The position numbers and the translations under genes were made by a program. Shown one piece after another: positions 1,806 to 34,542 of a DNA stretch of 34,574 nucleotides. The stretch's first letter is position 1, and every line of letters starts with the position of its first letter. Where the stretch lies: positions 1-34,574 of the IMG/VR virus record IMGVR_UViG_3300033153_002191; one strand, 5' to 3'. The DNA comes from a virus. The notes beneath the pieces were generated by a model, which saw only the letters and a list, made by a program, of their open reading frames with translations, had not been told where the DNA came from and searched no databases.

Positions 1806-1879
1806 TGGTTCCCTCCTCGTTATTAGTGGGAAGTGGGGCTGGTCTTACCCAAACGAGTCTCTTAATGAGATGCGTCTTA

Positions 1880-2081: not shown

Positions 2082-3314
2082 TCACCAGCCCATCATGGTC
2101 TTTACCTCGGCGTACGCTTTGCCCACCGTGGCGGCTTCTTTCATATTGGTAGCGTTGTAGTCGCTGAAGTGTTTGTAAAACCAGGTTGGCCCGTAGCTTT
2201 TGCCCTTGTTTTGCAAGTAGGCGAAAAACTCGCCCATGTTGCTTGGAACGGTTGCACCAGGGGCTTCAACCCACCCCCCCGGGGCGGCTTTGTCGCCCTC
2301 CCCAACATGGTATTCATAACGTGTGCCCGTGTCTTTAATTACCACAATGTCGCCGCCCTTTGCATCGGGTGGAAAAGGCGTTCTTAAATCGGGTAACACC
2401 GTGGTTGTGGGGCCCGTGGGCGGGGCGTCCTGGGTGGCCGCCTTACTTTCGGCGGTGGCGGGCCCTGTTGACGCTTTGGCAACCGCTGTTGTGGTTGTGG
2501 GATTATCCTCCGGCCACAGTTCGTCCTCGGCTTCATTGACGGTGGGCAAGTCTATAAACGGTGCCGTGTCGGCTTCGGGTAATTCCGCATCAGTGTACCC
2601 AGCCATACCCTCAACAAGTTCCATGGGTGGTAGCTGGCCCTTGCGGAACGCTTCCAGCATATTGTCCTGGCTTCTGATGTTGAGCACCCGCACCGTTTTC
2701 TTTTTGCCGTCGTCGGGGTTCGTTACCTCTTTGGGTTCCAGGGCAAGCACCAGCGGCACCATGCTCACACGCCCGTATATTTGTTTCACCAGGTCAAGGG
2801 CGTTGTTGACGTTCAAGATGCTGTTGATACTTCCCGTGTCAATCTGCCACACGCCAAAGCCGCTGACCTCTGGTAATAAGAATTGTAGGTTCATAACCTC
2901 ACCACAGCCACGCCGCCCGTACTCAAGGCACTCGCGGCCAGGGCAAACCACTTCACGGTTCACAACCTCTTTACTGTCACGGTTGGCCAGGGCACCAGTA
3001 GCGGTGTCAATCATCCGCATAGCGGTTTCGCCGTCACCCTTGCAAACCAAGCCACGGGAACGGCTGTATAAGCGGTAATACTGGCTGGCAAACTTCTCGG
3101 GGTCGTCTAGCGGAAATATAACCTTTAACTCGGTGGGCTTCTCCCCGTAGGCGGCCACCAGTTCGTCGTACTGTGGGTGTGTGGGGTCAAACACCAGGTA
3201 GTCGGTGGCTTTGGGGTATTCAGCCTTGCCCTCTTGCTTCACCCGCACACCCAGGTGTATCTTGCCAATCCGTGGCAATCTCCTTCTTTCTGTAAGCCCT
3301 TTGATAGGTGACAT
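2082..3314 (-). CDS. RDF (gp3)-like metal-binding protein
   Basis: 410 residues. The N-terminal half resembles the phage family annotated as recombination directionality factor-like or Gp3-like: RLPRIGKIHLGVRV near the start, then YLVFDP, VAAYGEKPTELKVIFPLDDP and YYRLYSRSRGLVCKGDGETA. A cysteine cluster (CPGRECLEYGRRGCGE, about residues 124-139) looks like a zinc site. After about residue 255 comes a linker rich in T, A and P, then a C-terminal domain ending KTMMGW that I do not recognise. In phiC31, Gp3 turns a serine integrase to excision, but no integrase is present here, so another DNA-processing role is possible. The start is preceded by GGAGGGAACC. Confidence 0.65.
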   Translation of the reverse strand: MSPIKGLTERRRLPRIGKIHLGVRVKQEGKAEYPKATDYLVFDPTHPQYDELVAAYGEKPTELKVIFPLDDPEKFASQYYRLYSRSRGLVCKGDGETAMRMIDTATGALANRDSKEVVNREVVCPGRECLEYGRRGCGEVMNLQFLLPEVSGFGVWQIDTGSINSILNVNNALDLVKQIYGRVSMVPLVLALEPKEVTNPDDGKKKTVRVLNIRSQDNMLEAFRKGQLPPMELVEGMAGYTDAELPEADTAPFIDLPTVNEAEDELWPEDNPTTTTAVAKASTGPATAESKAATQDAPPTGPTTTVLPDLRTPFPPDAKGGDIVVIKDTGTRYEYHVGEGDKAAPGGWVEAPGATVPSNMGEFFAYLQNKGKSYGPTWFYKHFSDYNATNMKEAATVGKAYAEVKTMMGW

Positions 3315-3334
3315 TATTCGGTTCCCTCCTCTAT

Positions 3335-3586
3335 TTAAGACTCGTTGATTTGGTCTGCCAGATAATCAAGTAAGTGGCGTCGGTTCCCTCCTGTATCTGT
3401 TGATGGGTCGGGTGCAGGTGGCGGTGATGGCGGCGGCACTACATCTATAATGTAGGCTGGGGCCAGGGCGGTACGGATTATTACCCGTTCCACCTCGGCC
3501 TCGGTGACGAGCCCGCCCTTGATTAGGCCGGACATCTTGGTGCTGTTAACCGTTTCTGTTATAACGGCATCGGCAAACGTAGGCAT
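3335..3586 (-). CDS. Hypothetical protein with proline-rich linker
   Basis: 83 residues, not recognised: a short helical N-terminus, a proline run (PPPSPPPAPDP, about 51-61) and a C-terminus RRHLLDYLADQI. Unlike its neighbours it has no clear ribosome site before the ATG. The reading frame stays open upstream through the 56-bp copy of methylase-gene DNA (3605-3660), and in the same frame as the methylase reads it. The original 5' end of this gene may therefore have been replaced by the duplication. GGAGGGAACC occurs inside it (3382-3391) with no good start after it. Confidence 0.5.
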   Translation of the reverse strand: MPTFADAVITETVNSTKMSGLIKGGLVTEAEVERVIIRTALAPAYIIDVVPPPSPPPAPDPSTDTGGNRRHLLDYLADQINES

Positions 3587-3660: not shown

Positions 3661-3960
3661 GGGGTCGTAGCTGATGCTGATGCGGCCTAGCTTGAGGGCG
3701 TAAAGCCCATCGGGAATGTCTTGTAAGCCGCCAGCACGGTCAATAGCCGCCTTAACGTTGCCGTGGGCCTTGTCCATAGCCTCAAACGCTTCGTTTACGG
3801 CTAATGCTTCGGGTATCTTGTCTGTTATGGCCTCAAGTATGGCGTGGGCATTGAGGTAGACATCTTTGGCTTTGCCCCAGACTAGTAAAAGGTCACGCAC
3901 CTCAAGCGTGCTAGTGAGGTTTATGGCTGACTTAGTGTAATCTGTGCCGTATTTCGGCAT
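3646..3960 (-). CDS. Hypothetical protein, 3' end altered by duplication
   Basis: 104 residues, not recognised. It is mostly helical (for example AHAILEAITDKIPEAL, then GNVKAAIDRAGG), with C-terminal YALKLGRISISYDP. A strong GGGAGGGAAACC ribosome site precedes the ATG. The last residues (SMNL) and the TAG stop come from the 56-bp segment copied from the methylase gene, so the natural C-terminus is probably lost or shortened. It overlaps the upstream zinc protein gene by about 40 bases in another frame. Confidence 0.65.
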   Translation of the reverse strand: MPKYGTDYTKSAINLTSTLEVRDLLLVWGKAKDVYLNAHAILEAITDKIPEALAVNEAFEAMDKAHGNVKAAIDRAGGLQDIPDGLYALKLGRISISYDPSMNL

Positions 3961-4298: not shown

Positions 4299-4340
4299 TA
4301 CGTTCCCTCCAATACTTTATTCTGCAACGGTTCCACATGG

Positions 4341-6689: not shown

Positions 6690-6701
6690 TCGTTCCCTCC
6701 C

Positions 6702-6920: not shown

Positions 6921-7234
6921 TTCAGTTCCCTCCTATTAATATTTGGCTTGTTCGCCAACGTCAGCCCGCCAAGCTCATAACCTGGCGGGCTGGTAATTGA
7001 TTAACAAACTCTCATTCGCTTTGGTCAGCCTCCCCTCTGACTTGCCTCTTATAACCCCGTGGTGCCTCCCCTGGCTTCCTGGCCCCGTGTCCTGGGCTTA
7101 ACTTCCTGTGTGCCTGGGTGTTGCCCGTTTACCACAACGGTGGGCTTGGAGGAGTGGGGGCTTCTTATGCCTTGCCCCCGTGGCTGGTTCGCTTATTCCT
7201 ATTTGGTTCCCTCCTGCTCCCTCACTTCCCTCTA
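6921..7234 (-). other. Long leader of the early transcript
   Basis: About 310 bases between the promoter and the first clear gene. It contains a GGAGGGAACC ribosome-type site (7205-7214) followed by an open frame of about 33 codons that would have to start at ATA and ends in TAA. It also contains a hairpin AGCCCGCCA/TGGCGGGCT (about 6963-6991) with no U-tract. No ATG/GTG/TTG ORF of credible size follows that ribosome site. It could be a decayed small gene, an unusual start or an untranslated regulatory leader. Confidence 0.5.
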
Positions 7235-7266
7235 ATTATAGGCCTCTCCCTTGCGTTTGTCAAGGG
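7235..7266 (-). promoter_or_regulatory. Perfect consensus sigma-70 promoter with operator
   Basis: On the minus strand TTGACA (7258-7263), exactly 17 bases, then TATAAT (7235-7240). The -35 lies within CCCTTGACAAACGCAAGGG (7248-7266), the same inverted-repeat site as at 4692-4710. It faces the early genes from 6.9 kb leftward and lies just downstream of the terminator that ends the late operon, so it should be the main immediate-early promoter. Confidence 0.85.
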
Positions 7267-7341: not shown

Positions 7342-7378
7342 AAAAAAACAAGGGCGAGAGGTATTACCCTCTCGCCCT
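7342..7378 (-). terminator. Intrinsic terminator of the late operon
   Basis: On the minus strand AGGGCGAGAGG pairs perfectly with CCTCTCGCCCT (arms 7368-7378 and 7351-7361, loop of six) and is followed by TGTTTTTTTG. It lies 41 bases after the last structural/lysis-region gene and before the early promoter, so it insulates the late and early transcription units. Confidence 0.9.
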
Positions 7379-7419
7379 CGCTAAAACGCCAGGTTGTCGG
7401 CCTGGTGGCCGCTGGTGGG

Positions 7420-23944: not shown

Positions 23945-25849
23945 TTAATCCACTATCGGAATAAATGTGCACCGACAGTTTGGGTGCACGGGTATCATCC
24001 CGTGTGTTTCAGTTATGGGATATTCACCAGCCAGCACTAGACACTCCTCGTCAGCGTCGGCGGCTGGGTAGAATTCTACTTTTTCAATGCCCTCTACCTC
24101 GTAACCTTGTAAAGCCCCCTCATTACTGGCGGCTATAACCTCGGTGCGGGCAACCATCTTGGCACGCCGTTCGTAACCGTTCTCATAATACTTGCCTATG
24201 CGTTTGGTTAACTGCGGGATGCTGTCGCCCTCCTCAAAGCCCTGGGCCAGCACCTTTCTTAACTCCTCTTTGGTTGTGCCGTTCACCATTTGGGCCAGCT
24301 CCAGCGAACGGGTAGAAATCCAATTCAAGGCCGCCTCGTTCAGCACGCCCTCGTCAAACCCTATCTGCTTTGCCCTGTGGGCTGGGTGAACTACCCCGCC
24401 ACCAGTGGCTAGTACAAACGACTGACCGTATACCCTGGTTATCTCGGGCTTAAAACCATCCTCCCAGGCGGTAGCGGCGGCATCAACGTCTATGGTGTCT
24501 TGGGTAATTGGGAACTGTTTCATTACAGCTTCCATCTGTTCAAACCACAGCTTCTTAAACAGCTTCTTAAACGCTTCCTCGTCCTCGCCAGCTTGGGTGG
24601 CAAAAGCACGCCATAGGGCTTCTTTTTGTTCGCCGCTTAATTCCTTGATAACCAGTGTTGCGTGCCTGTGGGCTTTAACGGCCATTGACACGGGTGCTGG
24701 CGGTGGGGCGAATGTTTCCCCCGCATTGGGTTCGGCATCATAGCCTAGTTGTAGCCTGGCTTCCTGGCGGGTTATAATACCCGCTGGGTAAAGTTCTTTT
24801 ACCTCATTAACGGTAGCCTCCCTGTTTTCAGGCACCACGTTGTCAAAGTCAAGCATAAAACCGTCGTCATAAAGTGGCACTAGCTGTTCGTTCAGTGCTT
24901 CCTTAATCCTGGTCAGGGCTGGCTTTACCACGTACTTACTAAACACCAGTTCGTCGGCCTCAACCCTGGCCCTACTGCCTGGCCCCTCAAGGCCAAGCAT
25001 GCTGGTCGGTATGCGGTAGGCCCCTATGATAATGTCACGGCTGATTTTGCGTAGCCGCCAAAAGTCCATATCACGGTTGGTCATTGCTATGGTGTTGGCC
25101 TTTGCCCCACCCCACAGGAACCCCGTTTTGCGGGCGTTACGCCATCCCTGGTGTATTTCGTTCCACTCGGTGCGGATTTTGTCCCGTTCGTTCTTTTCGG
25201 GTATTTCGGGGTACTCAATAACCAACCCAGGGGTGGCATCATTGTAGAACAAGCGGTTTTGATACCCAGCGGCATGCCTCTCGCTGTCAAGGTCAACACT
25301 AATGCTTTGTGCTGTACCTCTGCCACGAAAGATATTAGCTGGGTCGGGGTTCATTATATGGATAACTTCGGGTACCTCAAGCCGTAACCTACCCACGCCA
25401 GGGCGGTACTCGTAGTGGCTTATGTAGGTTTCAAGGCTGGGTATGATATACATAAATTGCGGAGGGGCCAGCCACATTTCAGCGGGTACGCCCAAACGGT
25501 TAAAGTTCAGCACAATAAATGCCTCTCCCACCAATCCTATGTATAGCTGTATTAGCTGTATAAACTGGTATTTGGTTTGGAACGGGTTGACGTAAGACAA
25601 CATATCAGTTAGCGGGTGGTTTTCCACCAAGTCGCCACGGACATTGCCGTCTTTCTCGTAAAGCCGCCACTGAACGTCGGCCACGCTTTCGCTTATTAGG
25701 TTGTTGGCCGCAAATAACCAGCCCACTTCGCCGTAGATTTTAAGGTATTGCTGGTAACTCCACCCAGGCGGTACTTCCATTGTGCTTATTGCCGTACCAC
25801 CAAGACGGTAGTTAATACCCTTAAACCAGTTCTTTATACTAAATGCCAT
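23945..25849 (-). CDS. Portal protein fused to MuF-like minor head protein
   Basis: 634 residues. Residues about 1-385 are an HK97-family portal (NNLISESVADVQWRLYEK, NHPLTDMLSYVNPFQTKYQF, GLVGEAFIVLN, VPEVIHIMNPDPANIFRGRG, IPTSMLGLEGPGSRARVEAD). After a proline-alanine linker (FAPPPAPVSMAVKAHRHA), residues about 400-634 form a MuF/SPP1 gp7-like domain (ARTEVIAASNEGALQGYEVE, CLVLAGEYPITE, HGMIPVHPNCRCTFIPIV). Portal and MuF are usually separate genes; here they make one polypeptide. MuF domains sit inside the head and can be ejected with DNA. Confidence 0.85.
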   Translation of the reverse strand: MAFSIKNWFKGINYRLGGTAISTMEVPPGWSYQQYLKIYGEVGWLFAANNLISESVADVQWRLYEKDGNVRGDLVENHPLTDMLSYVNPFQTKYQFIQLIQLYIGLVGEAFIVLNFNRLGVPAEMWLAPPQFMYIIPSLETYISHYEYRPGVGRLRLEVPEVIHIMNPDPANIFRGRGTAQSISVDLDSERHAAGYQNRLFYNDATPGLVIEYPEIPEKNERDKIRTEWNEIHQGWRNARKTGFLWGGAKANTIAMTNRDMDFWRLRKISRDIIIGAYRIPTSMLGLEGPGSRARVEADELVFSKYVVKPALTRIKEALNEQLVPLYDDGFMLDFDNVVPENREATVNEVKELYPAGIITRQEARLQLGYDAEPNAGETFAPPPAPVSMAVKAHRHATLVIKELSGEQKEALWRAFATQAGEDEEAFKKLFKKLWFEQMEAVMKQFPITQDTIDVDAAATAWEDGFKPEITRVYGQSFVLATGGGVVHPAHRAKQIGFDEGVLNEAALNWISTRSLELAQMVNGTTKEELRKVLAQGFEEGDSIPQLTKRIGKYYENGYERRAKMVARTEVIAASNEGALQGYEVEGIEKVEFYPAADADEECLVLAGEYPITETHGMIPVHPNCRCTFIPIVD

Positions 25850-27124: not shown

Positions 27125-27656
27125 TGGATAACACTACCTCTTTATGCCCATTGCGTGGCGGCTTTGTAACGGTTCCATCGGCAAAGTGATATTCAACAAT
27201 CGGCGGCACCAGGGGACCACCTTCACCGTCTGTAATCTTAGTTGGGGCCAGGGTGCCCAATATTTTGGCTAGCTTCTCCTCGGCCTCAAGGGCTATGCGT
27301 AAGTAGCTGGCCCTGGCGTAGGCGTTGCCCCTTGCCAGGTTGGTGAAGTCTGCCCACGCTTGGTGCTGTATGTCCAGCAAACGGGCCACCTGGTCAGAAC
27401 GCTTGGTGTCGGTAGGTTCGTTCATTTGCTCTAGCCAGCGTTGGCGGTTGGCGGCCACGTCGTAGTGCACGGTGATGTGGTTGGTTTTCTCGCACCCGTG
27501 TATTTCGCTACCAGGCCGTACGGACTCCGTACGTATCATTTCGGCTATCTGCCGTTCGGTATAACCACGTAGCCATAACTGGCCCACCAAAGCTCGGCGG
27601 CGGTACGTTAAGGCTGTCGGTGCTCTACTTGGTTTGTCTACTGGTTTGTTGGCCAT
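27084..27656 (-). CDS. Terminase small subunit-like DNA-binding protein
   Basis: 190 residues. N-terminal half has a helix-turn-helix (RRALVGQLWLRGYTERQIAE, then MIRTESVRPG) followed by a helical core (ANRQRWLEQMNEPTDTKRSD, VARLLDIQHQAWADFTNLAR, AYARASYLRIALEAEEKLAK). The C-terminus is a flexible tail (FADGTVTKPPRNGHKEVV). Directly upstream of and overlapping TerL, it fits the role of recognising phage DNA for packaging. The small subunit family varies too much for a firmer call by eye. Confidence 0.7.
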   Translation of the reverse strand: MANKPVDKPSRAPTALTYRRRALVGQLWLRGYTERQIAEMIRTESVRPGSEIHGCEKTNHITVHYDVAANRQRWLEQMNEPTDTKRSDQVARLLDIQHQAWADFTNLARGNAYARASYLRIALEAEEKLAKILGTLAPTKITDGEGGPLVPPIVEYHFADGTVTKPPRNGHKEVVLSSDHDGNGSKPDTG

Positions 27657-28368
27657 CTATCAGCACCGCCTCTTTCCCTGTAAACTGTTGCCAGCGTTTA
27701 ATGATCACATCGCAGTAATGCTCGTCTATTTCCATCATGTAGCAGCGGCGCCCTAGCTTCTCACAAGCTATTAGAGTGGAGCCAGAGCCACCGAAGAGGT
27801 CGAGCACCCTACCATTCAAGGGGGTAGAGTGCTTAATTGCCCTTTCTGCCAACACCACTGGTTTTTGGGTAGGGTGCTGATAATCACCACCAAAATCTCT
27901 ATCTATATTCCATAAGTCTGTATCAGTTCTGTCTCCATCCCAATACTTACCATGGAACCAACCATAGGCTATAAATTCATGCTTTCGATGGTAATCTCTC
28001 CTGCCTATAGAGTGATTATTTTTTGCCCAGACAATACAGGTTTCTTCTCTCCCCGTAGCATTCCTAACCCACTCTGCCAATTCAGGCCACATGTGTGTTC
28101 TGGAACACACATAAAAAGCCCCTTTGCAAAACGAAGGCATTATAGATAAAAAGTCAGAATAATTAAAATCTATATCGTTCTTTAATCCACCTAGCTTATG
28201 GACAGAGCGAGCTCTGCCCCCGATTGGTCTTTCCTCTGGGATATAATTCACATTATAAGGCGGGTCGGTGAACACCATATCCGCCTTCTCTCCCGCCATC
28301 AGCCTCTCCACATCCGTTATGACAGTTGCGTCACCGCATAATAGCCGATGATTCCCTAGACTCCACAA
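27625..28368 (-). CDS. ParB-linked DNA methyltransferase (N6A/N4C, beta type)
   Basis: 247 residues from a TTG start (28366-28368). Motif IV TDPPYN (34-39), target-region stretch, HPTQKP (165-170), then motif I DLFGGSGST (190-198). This order marks a beta-class adenine-N6 or cytosine-N4 methylase. In many phages the same domain is fused after a ParB domain; here the ParB gene lies just upstream in a frame shifted by one. Upstream in-frame codons (LTDDDAVPEATE...GDLW) continue the fusion pattern. Modification probably protects phage DNA from host restriction. It contains the source of the 56-bp copy found at 3.6 kb. Confidence 0.88.
   Translation of the reverse strand: MWSLGNHRLLCGDATVITDVERLMAGEKADMVFTDPPYNVNYIPEERPIGGRARSVHKLGGLKNDIDFNYSDFLSIMPSFCKGAFYVCSRTHMWPELAEWVRNATGREETCIVWAKNNHSIGRRDYHRKHEFIAYGWFHGKYWDGDRTDTDLWNIDRDFGGDYQHPTQKPVVLAERAIKHSTPLNGRVLDLFGGSGSTLIACEKLGRRCYMMEIDEHYCDVIIKRWQQFTGKEAVLIDGQQTSRQTK
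27928..27983. repeat. 56-bp source segment of duplicated DNA
   Basis: Exact copy of 3605-3660. In this gene it encodes a continuous part of the methylase around YGWFHGKYWDGDR, so this is the original location. Both flanks diverge at once from those of the other copy. Confidence 0.9.
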
Positions 28369-28414
28369 GTCACCCCGCCTGGATATCGATTCTGTGGCCT
28401 CTGGTACGGCATCA

Positions 28415-28870
28415 TCATCGGTTAATCCCTTCCTCCTGCACGTGGAACTCGGTCATTAAGTCCTCAATGGCCTGGTCGGTAAAGCCCGTCATTTCCATAT
28501 CAACCGCACCCGTGTCAAGTTCCTCAATCAGGTCTTTCAGAACGGTTCTGTCAATCTCGGCCAGTTCTGCCAGGCGGTTGTCGGCCAGCATGTCGGCCCA
28601 TTCCCTGGCTTCGTTTTCCCAATCCTGGTAGTGCACTGGCACCACATCATAACCCCATAACTGTGCCGCCTGTAACCTGGCGTGGCCCTCCACGATAAAA
28701 CCGCTTCTCTTACTCACCACTATGGCGTGCCGCCAGCCCGTAAAGTCTATCACTTTAGCCAGCAAGCGTATTTGCTCGTCAGGGTGTTTGTTTGGGTTCC
28801 GTGGGTTCGGTATCAGTTTGTGGGGTTCCACCAGTTCGCTATATAGGCAATTCTCCACGTTTGGTTGCAC
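28415..28870 (-). CDS. ParB-like nuclease-domain protein
   Basis: 151 residues from a GTG (28868-28870) preceded by AAAGAGGTGA; a longer in-frame ORF to 29053 would run backward through the promoter and terminator and is rejected. Core: LIPNPRNPNKHPDEQIRLLA, GWRHAIVVSKRSGFIVEGHA, RLQAAQLWGYDVVPVHYQDW, DMLADNRLAELAEIDRTVLK. This is the ParB/Srx fold domain found fused to phage methylases, where it is thought to bind DNA or nucleotides. It ends in TGA one base out of frame from the methylase. First gene after the late leader and terminator. Confidence 0.82.
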   Translation of the reverse strand: MQPNVENCLYSELVEPHKLIPNPRNPNKHPDEQIRLLAKVIDFTGWRHAIVVSKRSGFIVEGHARLQAAQLWGYDVVPVHYQDWENEAREWADMLADNRLAELAEIDRTVLKDLIEELDTGAVDMEMTGFTDQAIEDLMTEFHVQEEGINR

Positions 28871-28907: not shown

Positions 28908-28930
28908 AAAAAAACCCGCACAAAGCGGGG
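28908..28930 (-). terminator. Intrinsic terminator in late leader
   Basis: On the minus strand CCCGC-TTTGT-GCGGG is followed by seven T. It lies between the promoter at 29025-29053 and the first late gene (parB-like), so late transcription must read through it, as at lambda tR'. Confidence 0.88.
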
Positions 28931-29018
28931 TGAAAGTCTGGGGCCACTCGTTTGTAACGAGTGGCCCCCTATCCATTTGGAGGGAACCATCTGGATGCTG
29001 GGCACAGAGCCGCCCATT
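28908..29018 (-). ncRNA. Candidate short leader RNA (6S-like), about 110 nt
   Basis: Bounded by the promoter at 29025-29053 and the terminator at 28908-28930. Contains a 13-bp-stem hairpin with a 3-nt loop (arms around 28940-28952 and 28956-28968) and, nearer the 5' end, an unpaired stretch GGUUCCCUCC (complement of 28979-28988), the exact reverse complement of the GGAGGGAACC ribosome site used before several phage genes. By position it resembles lambda 6S RNA. A regulatory role by base pairing is inference. Confidence 0.6.
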
Positions 29019-29024
29019 GCAAGG

Positions 29025-29053
29025 ATGGTATCACAGGCATAAAGTGTTGTCAA
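29025..29053 (-). promoter_or_regulatory. Candidate late promoter
   Basis: Minus strand TTGACA (29048-29053), 17-bp spacer, TACCAT (29025-29030). The ATGGTATC half-site of the 1880-1896 palindrome covers the -10. It faces a short leader, a strong terminator and then the ParB/methylase/terminase/structural genes. Confidence 0.7.
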
Positions 29054-29109
29054 GCCCTGGGTGGTTCACGCCTACAAGATTATTTGCACAGTGTGGTGTT
29101 TTCATACCA

Positions 29110-29550
29110 TCACGCACGCTTAACTTTTTGGTAATGTTCCTTGATGCCGTGCCGCCTGTTGAACTCGGCATAGGTAAGCCGCCGCCGCCGCTGGCCCGAA
29201 CAATACAGCACCACACGCTTAATGCGTCGGTCAATGTTTTCAACATTGGTTTTCATTAGGTCGGCCAAGGTTTGGGCATCCCAGTCGTCAGCCAGGCATT
29301 TCACCGTCAGCTTACCATCTTGGCTGTTGACGTTGCACCGTTCCAGGCGGTATTTGATTTCTGCCGACAAGCAAACGGCTGTCACAAAGTAGGCCGTATG
29401 GGACACACTCGCCCCAGGGCCACCAACGTAGCCCGTTTCCCTGTTGTCACGTGGCCAGCGGCCCTCCTCAAGTTCCCGCAAGTGCTCAATGGCCCAGGTC
29501 ACGTGCTCGGGCCACATTCTTATATCGCTGGGCTTGCAATAATCAAGCAT
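29110..29550 (-). CDS. HTH-like basic protein, candidate late antiterminator/activator
   Basis: 146 residues from the ATG at 29548-29550 (GGAGG six bases upstream; a GTG six bases earlier is weaker). N-terminal WPEHVTWAIEHLRELEEGRW; a central SHTAYFVTAVCLSAEIKYRL; then DDWDAQTLADLMKTNVENID and RRIKRVVLYCSG, a probable HTH with a basic recognition helix; a C-terminus rich in arginine (QRRRRLTYAEFNRRHGIKEH). It ends just before the late promoter, the position of lambda Q, ArpU or RinA-type late regulators. No direct family match by eye, so the role is positional inference. Confidence 0.5.
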   Translation of the reverse strand: MLDYCKPSDIRMWPEHVTWAIEHLRELEEGRWPRDNRETGYVGGPGASVSHTAYFVTAVCLSAEIKYRLERCNVNSQDGKLTVKCLADDWDAQTLADLMKTNVENIDRRIKRVVLYCSGQRRRRLTYAEFNRRHGIKEHYQKVKRA

Positions 29551-29561
29551 TGGCACCCTCC

Positions 29562-29675
29562 TTATACGGCATCTTTACCTGCCAAACACTTCACAACGAA
29601 TGGTCGTCTGACACCAGCACTATCACCACCTATGTAGACATTGCCACTATCTAGTAGTCCTATTATACAAGTCAT
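29562..29675 (-). CDS. Truncated Ntn-hydrolase-like N-terminus (37 aa)
   Basis: MTCIIGLLDSGNVYIGGDSA followed by GVRRPFVVKCLAGKDAV and TAA. The opening 'MTxIIGL...VYIGGDSAG' matches the N-terminal strand pair of phage proteasome-like (Ntn hydrolase) proteins, which run to about 150-200 residues. Only this part remains, with a good AAAGGAGAATTT ribosome site and overlapped start. It is a shortened or decayed gene that may still be translated. Confidence 0.5.
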   Translation of the reverse strand: MTCIIGLLDSGNVYIGGDSAGVRRPFVVKCLAGKDAV

Positions 29676-30076
29676 AAATTCTCCTTTAATAACGTTAATT
29701 GCACCTTGTAGTAAATACCCAGGGCCGCACGGTCGGGCCTGTGGTGCACCCGCCGTCGGGCTTGCAACTCGTCGTAAGCATCTTGGCCCAGGTGAGCTAA
29801 GAACCAGCCCTGGTGCTCGTCAGGGTGATGCTCCAGGTAAGTGTGGCACCCGCCACAAAGTCCAGCGGCGTTGTCCTCATCCCACCGCACCACTTTAGTT
29901 GTCCGGCCAATAAAGTGAGAGCATTGCAACGACATATAGGCGGGGCGGGTGGAACCATTCTCCCTGGTGCTGTCGTACTTAGCCGATAGACACCGTTCGC
30001 ACCCGCCCACCCTGGCTAGGGCCCGCCGCCTTATGAACTCACTAAATAGCGTGTCCAGCGGGTCACGTTTAGCCAT
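29672..30076 (-). CDS. NinG/Rap-like HNH recombination endonuclease
   Basis: 134 residues from the ATG at 30074-30076; the GTG/ATG upstream starts lack support. It starts MAKRDPLDTLFSEFIRRRAL and continues GGCERC, SLQCSHFIGRTTKVVRWDED, NAAGLCGGCHTYLEHHPDEH. The CxxC...CxHF...N...C..CH arrangement is that of lambda NinG (Rap), a nuclease that resolves recombination intermediates. Here the late-position genes follow directly, as ninG lies before Q in lambda. Coupled to the next small gene by an ATGA overlap. Confidence 0.8.
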   Translation of the reverse strand: MAKRDPLDTLFSEFIRRRALARVGGCERCLSAKYDSTRENGSTRPAYMSLQCSHFIGRTTKVVRWDEDNAAGLCGGCHTYLEHHPDEHQGWFLAHLGQDAYDELQARRRVHHRPDRAALGIYYKVQLTLLKENL

Positions 30077-30347
30077 TACAACTCCGTTCAGCCCGTGCCA
30101 GGTTAAAGGCACCCCACAGCACGAACGGTATGCAAATATAGCCGCCCCATATTAGTACCAGTTCCATGTAGAACACGTCAAGGGCTGGCAGCTCGGGCCA
30201 CGGGCTTAACCAATATATGGACGCCCCTGTACTCTGTGCTTGGAGTAAGGGCTGTATGTTGTATTCCACTATGCACCTGGTTAACTCACCCACGGGATAG
30301 GCCACCATAAGCATCACAGCTACGATTATAAAGATAAACAGTTTCAT
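30069..30347 (-). CDS. Two-TM membrane protein
   Basis: 92 residues. N-terminal membrane segment MKLFIFIIVAVMLMVAYPVG, an external loop with one cysteine (LTRCIVEYNIQPLLQAQSTG, then SIYWLSPWPELPALDVF) and a second segment MELVLIWGGYICIPFVLWGA, then a short basic end. No family recognised. First of three overlapping or near genes coding small membrane proteins, so a role at the host envelope (superinfection exclusion or lysis control) is possible. GGAGGGAAT precedes the ATG. Confidence 0.6.
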   Translation of the reverse strand: MKLFIFIIVAVMLMVAYPVGELTRCIVEYNIQPLLQAQSTGASIYWLSPWPELPALDVFYMELVLIWGGYICIPFVLWGAFNLARAERSCNG

Positions 30348-31053: not shown

Positions 31054-31062
31054 GGTTCCCTC

Positions 31063-31158
31063 CTACTGCCAGCCTGTCCGTATTATCCAGCCTATTCCAA
31101 AGCCAGTTAACAAGGCCAGGCCGACTACTAACCAAAATACTATCGGCTCAATGCTCAT
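31063..31158 (-). CDS. Tiny membrane protein (31 aa)
   Basis: MSIEPIVFWLVVGLALLTGF then GIGWIIRTGWQ: one long hydrophobic helix with small C-terminal tail. AGGGGGTGCCAAG precedes the ATG. The stop lies by the ribosome site of the next gene. Could be a small envelope-active peptide like its neighbours; no family. Confidence 0.5.
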   Translation of the reverse strand: MSIEPIVFWLVVGLALLTGFGIGWIIRTGWQ

Positions 31159-34241: not shown

Positions 34242-34542
34242 CTTGGTTCCCTCCCTTAAAATACCCCTCTTGGGTGCTGGGTGCCAGCGTCCGGCCCGCA
34301 CCAATCCCGCACGTACAGGTATAGCTCGTCGTCACCCACCTGGAACGTAGCGGCCTGTGCCAGCCAGTTTGGTATCGTATCAATTCCACTTCTTTCCAAT
34401 GCCGCCGCACCCGTTTCTTACCGTTCCGCCACCCTTTGCTCTTACTCACAAAGGAACGGTAGCCAATATTTTGATACACGGGGTCGTTGGCTAAACATTC
34501 CTCAAGGGCATCGGGCGGTAGCTGTTCCAAAAACCTGTTCAT
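34222..34542 (-). CDS. Hypothetical protein, probably frameshifted
   Basis: 106-codon ORF, start overlapping the helicase-loader stop (ATGA, in the terminal repeat). The first 50 or so residues (MNRFLEQLPPDALEECLAND, NIGYRSFVSKSKGW) look natural, but the last part reads as unlikely sequence and runs past the next gene's ribosome site. A frame one base off (34256-34399 and a few codons earlier) gives natural protein (IPNWLAQAATFQVGDDELYL) and a stop just before that ribosome site. A single-base change near 34400-34425 would join the two. Confidence 0.6.
   Translation of the reverse strand: MNRFLEQLPPDALEECLANDPVYQNIGYRSFVSKSKGWRNGKKRVRRHWKEVELIRYQTGWHRPLRSRWVTTSYTCTCGIGAGRTLAPSTQEGYFKGGNQDERNTD
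34256..34399 (-). other. Alternative C-terminal frame of the preceding gene
   Basis: Reads GIDTIPNWLAQAATFQVGDD then ELYLYVRDWCGPDAGTQHPR and TAA (34256-34258), immediately followed by the next gene's GGGAGGGAACC. It has no ribosome site of its own; the first possible start is TTG at 34397-34399. More consistent with the true C-terminus of the 34222-34542 gene than the frame that ORF ends in. Confidence 0.55.

Follow-up and report, generated by a model that had tools for sequence, protein, structure and literature searches.

How can late genes be expressed when their strong promoter is followed, around 110 nucleotides further on, by an intrinsic terminator? This question is raised by the virus record IMGVR_UViG_3300033153_002191 of IMG/VR, which was analyzed over its full length of 34,574 nucleotides (the window), and in which such a promoter and terminator separate a small basic gene, here called X148, from the late operon. 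The initial annotation had described the locus as a copy of the Q/pR'/6S/tR' switch of phage lambda, with a new type of late antiterminator. We give an even chance to a switch with two levels, in which X148 opens the late genes past the terminator, while the terminated leader serves as an antisense RNA against the early genes. The antisense complement within the leader, which is absent from the initial annotation, is the more novel part as compared to the late-switch anatomy.

The order on the minus strand, which carries all features given below, is NinG, X148, the late promoter P_L, the leader, the terminator tL, a ParB-like gene, a methylase, the small and large terminase and the structural genes. 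P_L (29025..29053) reads TTGACA-17-TACCAT, with the -35 at 29053-29048, the -10 at 29030-29025 and a TG extended -10. From the predicted start near 29018, the leader (28908..29018) contains three hairpins and the terminator: hairpin A (29016-28999), hairpin B (28996-28971), which displays UUCCCU in its loop, hairpin C (28940..28968), which has 13 base pairs and ends in GGCCAC...GTGGCC, and tL (28908..28929), CCCGCTTTGTGCGGG-TTTTTTT, with seven T. The leader folds better than its shuffled versions (z -5.2, 0/200 as good) and the pairs of tL have a probability of 0.92-0.99. A fixed-rule scan of both strands recovered exactly one tandem of promoter and terminator in the window, at P_L-tL, and the same scan found 3 in total in 40 random Markov genomes; a strong promoter and terminator in tandem are thus rare by chance. 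P_L lies upstream of tL, and the stretch from tL to the first late genes yielded no promoter hit as strong as P_L; to express the late genes, the polymerase must therefore read through tL. Alternative folds of the attenuator kind are not supported, in that no antiterminator fold competes with tL. An Rfam search of the leader gave nothing at gathering score, and the sub-threshold hits (anti-hemB, Trp_leader) were disregarded. The basic gene, the promoter, the leader with its 13-bp hairpin and the terminator all lie where the initial annotation had placed them, and its ParB, methylase, terminase and ninG-like labels are borne out by profile matches.

Several early genes are set apart by their ribosome-binding sites. 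The early promoter P_E (7235..7263), a perfect TTGACA-17-TATAAT, comes after the strong terminator 3' of the structural genes (7347..7382; 15 pairs and a T tract), which was taken as the end of the late operon, and reads replication genes (a DnaC-like gene and a replication initiator) up to the end of the contig; methylases, NinG and X148 are at the opposite end. The two ends are presumably contiguous, on the assumption of a permuted genome, and 'early' accordingly denotes P_E to X148 and 'late' ParB to position 7347. With 9 copies on the coding strand against 0.18 expected, GGAGGGAAC is tied for the commonest 9-mer there. All nine copies are early and none is late, and seven are found at Shine-Dalgarno spacing from a start codon, namely those at 6925..6933, 6692..6700, 4302..4310, 3321..3329 (before a gene of 410 aa), 1808..1816 (before a small open reading frame, ORF), 31055..31063 and 34246..34254 (before an HNH-like gene). 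Conservation extends beyond the core, since GAAC follows GGAGG in 9/35 early versus 0/38 late cases (p 7e-4). The reverse complement of the early motif, GGTTCCCTCC, has a single exact copy on the strand, and this copy (28979..28988) is located in the P_L leader, where the UUCCCU that it contributes to the loop of hairpin B has an unpaired probability of 1.0. By chance, one leader would contain a complement of the 9-mer with a probability of about 7e-5. Early ribosome-binding sites furthermore pair better with the seed segment than late ones do (p 0.016). Paired in full with the early leader, the P_L leader reached a duplex energy no better than that of shuffles, and the antisense case therefore rests on the exact seed.

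Relatives were reached via a search with the major capsid protein. Two of these, L054 and L055, contain a homologue of X148, NinG, ParB-methylase and terminase in the order seen in the window, and in both a tandem of promoter and terminator is located between the X148 homologue and the ParB/methylase/terminase genes (TTGACA-18-TATACT with GCCCGCCCAGGCGGCGGGC-TTTTT in L054; TTGACA-17-TACCTT with GCACCCGAGGATCAGTCGGGTGC-TTTTACTTTT in L055). Three phages, all with X148, thus share the promoter-leader-terminator arrangement at the homologous site, which supports the proposed switch. A further contig, L066, has a promoter and a terminator-like hairpin; X148 is not on that contig. In L054 the leader folds with a z of -4.2, the 5' hairpin, hairpin C and the terminator follow each other as in the window, hairpin C has kept its GGCCAC/GTGGCC ends, with inner bases that changed yet still pair, and the 10-mer GGTTCCCTCC is kept at 3167-3176. 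The genome of this phage (G009) has an operon layout identical to that of the window. Its six copies of the motif are all early, one of them within the P_E leader, and its single complement is again in the leader of P_L. Five of the six copies are placed at a start codon (12/15 for both genomes combined), and GAAC follows GGAGG in 6/33 early versus 0/45 late cases (p 4e-3). When viral contigs were scanned with a pattern of seed and hairpin, the L054 phage came up twice, next to two chance hits. Of the leader elements, L055 has kept the promoter and terminator only, and its phage contains neither motif nor seed. An unpaired CUCCUUUU stretch in the L055 leader (3873-3915) resembles the anti-Shine-Dalgarno end of 16S rRNA. 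In both L054 and L055 an additional gene separates X148 from the late promoter; the one in L054 (2757-3115) is an HTH/HNH (HTH, helix-turn-helix) gene that has its own near-consensus promoter and an end overlapping the -35 of P_L.

X148 (29110..29550; ATG start, with an alternative GTG two codons upstream) encodes a basic protein of 146 aa (pI 9.2) that belongs to an orphan family. At the corresponding site, L054 and L055 each encode a homologue of about 40% identity. No match above cut-off was obtained in Pfam, PHROGs, NCBIfam or PDB sequences, the three members of the family did not match the Q antiterminators (21Q, lambda Q, 82Q and AlpA; PF06530, PF03589 and PF06323) at E values up to 10, and the RinA/ArpU models TIGR01636 and TIGR01637 were likewise not matched in NCBIfam at E up to 10. 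An hhalign comparison with five RinA-like proteins gave a probability of 0.1, and those with the HTH protein of L072 and with lambda Q were negative. The AlphaFold model is all-helical, with an HTH-like pair at 92-118 that is of low confidence; Foldseek returned nothing significant, and the best hits of VIA-align (Z 5.1) were unrelated helical chains. The similarity to Q, ArpU or RinA that the initial annotation had suggested looking for was therefore not found by sequence, hhalign or fold, and of its 'basic HTH-like protein' the charge stands and the HTH is confined to a low-confidence model. Direct searches of viral contigs, genome contigs and a phage collection gave no match to X148, those with the terminase and with the X148 of L055 added no members to the family, and a search with the X148 alignment retrieved one further copy of the L054 phage and nothing else. 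The homologues in L054 (2228-2290) and L055 (2903-2960) have a CxxC...C stretch at the N-terminus, which is missing from the window protein.

Considering its position, X148 is likely a late regulator, because in relatives the same slot is filled by RinA (L006; TIGR01636, E 2e-21; before a ParB that is 59% identical), by a protein that PHROGs describes as 'transcriptional regulator' (L007, again preceding ParB) or, in the equivalent region of L069/L072, by a sigma-4-like HTH protein. Given that P_L is near consensus and placed before tL, control of read-through appears the simplest mechanism for X148. A Q-type antiterminator is plausible on the basis of position and anatomy; of the claim of a new late antiterminator, the late regulator is supported by position and the Q type stays conjectural, as neither a Q-family match nor, in the window, a lambda-type pause element was found.

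In the proposed two-level switch, X148, being the last early gene, would act at P_L such that the polymerase passes tL, in the manner of Q or possibly of RinA. As long as tL works, the leader of around 110 nucleotides would be set free as a stable small RNA, whose seed GGUUCCCUCC may pair with the copies of GGAGGGAACC that lie in the early leader and at early ribosome-binding sites. Early translation would then be lowered as replication raises the copy number of P_L. With its stems, exposed seed and terminator, the terminated leader indeed appears to be built like a small regulatory RNA. The closest precedent is StxS, a small RNA from the pR'-tR' leader that silences a ribosome-binding site (PMC7873438). 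Like StxS, the RNA of the window would be a terminated late-promoter leader, with a Rho-independent terminator at its end and a seed that complements ribosome-binding sites; unlike those of StxS, the putative targets are a repeated motif at many early ribosome-binding sites of the same phage. Should this hold, the late switch and the shut-off of an early gene set would be coupled by one short RNA, a multi-target StxS, and X148 would add an orphan family to the phage late regulators.

A similar logic may apply elsewhere. The Start-Associated Sequences (SAS) of cluster K mycobacteriophages are a repeated Shine-Dalgarno-containing motif that precedes many genes, is not found in the structural arm and has one copy on the complementary strand; in 2011, whether they bind an RNA or a protein partner 'remains to be determined' (PMC3203893). 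Like the SAS, GGAGGGAAC is repeated, asymmetric and conserved beyond a Shine-Dalgarno core just before start codons; the SAS differ in sequence and host, and their copy on the complementary strand is found apart, in a stretch close to the right end, and not in a late leader. In the K1 phages Angelica (NC_014458, 58634; locus L092) and CrimD (NC_014459, 58835; L096), the single reversed SAS occupies the apical loop of a long hairpin near the right end, with an unpaired probability near 1 across most of the seed. The stretch is non-coding in CrimD and overlapped by an annotated ORF in Angelica, where it folds with a z of -6.4. The reversed SAS lies behind terminator-like hairpins that differ in sequence between the two phages, and in a neighboring hairpin the two are distinguished by a compensatory change. 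The K1 reversed SAS would fit the same logic by independent origin. Put generally, some phages would tag their early genes with a common motif for ribosome binding, a single small RNA of the phage would present the complement in a loop, and in the lineage of the window this RNA would be the terminated P_L leader, which gates the late and silences the early genes; we hold this, which would also explain the K1 SAS, to be no more and no less probable than its opposite. The seed of the leader, read in this way, offers a direct test of SAS function.

Several observations weigh against the two-level switch. X148 is unmatched to any known antiterminator, and its AlphaFold models are weak (pLDDT 62 and 48). 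Two of the nine motif copies lie away from start codons, one in the P_E leader (7206..7214, with a counterpart in G009 at 24304) and one at 3383..3391, and GGAGG itself is a general Shine-Dalgarno core that late genes use too. The L054 seed is in part paired (unpaired probability 0.33-0.93), and G009 is kin of the window, hence not fully independent. The antisense layer is lineage-specific, because L055 has the promoter and terminator without motif and seed. Finally, no reversed SAS was found in the searched parts of TM4 (from 30.0 kb) and Pixie (from 31.0 kb).

The locus might also be a plain switch of the lambda type, in which X148 is an antiterminator at P_L, the leader RNA an inert by-product and the seed match incidental. 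Gene order and anatomy speak for it. As in lambda (and AlpA), the regulator gene is located by a strong promoter, a short leader, an intrinsic terminator and the late genes, and a NinG-like gene lies upstream. A repeated -35-like element follows the -10 in L054 and L055, where a second TTGACA occurs 29 and 27 nt after the first, comparable to TTGACT at 28 nt in lambda pR'; the window has TTGCAA alone, at 31. On the other hand, in each of the two genomes the early motif has one exact complement, the seed, which in both is within the P_L leader, and by inspection no lambda-type pause element (A2, T6 near the start) was found in the window leader. In the literature (PMC9371919, PMC7171158), the marks of Q action are a pause element, a terminator downstream, and a site for Q binding that is placed between -35 and -10 or inside the late promoter. 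Of these hallmarks the terminator, conserved in L054 and L055, was recognized in the window; TACTAT in L054 and GATAGT in L066 fit a pause element, though such matches are common by chance. Unlike lambda, the late genes start with ParB/methylase/terminase, and X148 matches none of the Q families. Q has an HTH that binds the site between -35 and -10 and an N-terminal ring; for X148 there is a low-confidence all-helical model, for which the fold searches gave no significant match. Taken together, a plain Q-like switch seems unlikely.

Rather improbable as well is that X148 activates initiation at P_L like the RinA, ArpU and Ltr regulators of Gram-positive phages, with tL merely ending the early operon. 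The size, charge and position of X148 do fit the description of Ltr (PMC13123087), the region holds RinA or sigma-4-like HTH proteins in relatives, and early transcripts also reach tL, because there is no terminator between X148 and P_L. RinA, however, is described as an activator and X148 does not match it in sequence. The late promoters are near consensus, which argues against the need for an activator, and activation alone would yield a short RNA only, since P_L is upstream of tL. The promoter of phi11, whose known late regulator is RinA, looks far from consensus as compared to P_L. Nevertheless, phi11 shares the problem of a promoter before a terminator, with an intrinsic terminator between rinA and terS (L075, 4953-4990). 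In a small survey, hairpins or terminators were found in the same gap in L006, L069/L072 and vB_SpsX-DS6, and the promoter-leader-terminator layout is thus wider than the Q phages. The gene order that was said to copy lambda is therefore real and conserved without being specific to lambda. That RinA phages place a terminator between the late promoter and the terminase hints that RinA itself may act on termination. Among phages with RinA or sigma-4-like proteins, L081, L006, L069 and L072 show a strong hairpin or a terminator in the interval from the late promoter region to the terminase; in L079, L082 and L083 the RinA-like gene is followed on its 3' side by tRNA-like sequences, a terminator and then the next genes.

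GGAGGGAACC could instead be a DNA site for a repressor, resembling the stoperators of mycobacteriophages, which are scattered asymmetric sites (PMC9283540), and the reversed copy in the P_L leader would then be an operator and not an RNA seed. The copy directly after P_E, which in the window and G009 has no start codon, agrees with this. Against it, 12 of the 15 copies in the two genomes have Shine-Dalgarno spacing to a start codon, and the P_L copy alone is in the opposite orientation; we regard this explanation as distinctly improbable. A cis-acting, protein-independent antiterminator RNA like put of HK022 would suit the strong, well-folded hairpins before the terminator in the window and L054, yet it is very improbable, considering that these hairpins are absent from L055 in spite of its promoter and terminator, and that Rfam gave sub-threshold hits only.

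The genes flanking the switch could be assigned by profile. The NinG/Rap-like endonuclease upstream of X148 (29672..30112) matches phrog_5034 (E 1e-12), the ParB-like first late gene (28415..28870; GTG start) phrog_498 / phrog_620, and the DNA methylase that comes second (27625..28368) PF01555 (E 1e-24). ParB and methylase are two ORFs in the window (28368-28440) and a single ORF of 398 aa in L054 and L055; the split is due to a one-base length difference that shifts the frame and is either real or a sequencing error.
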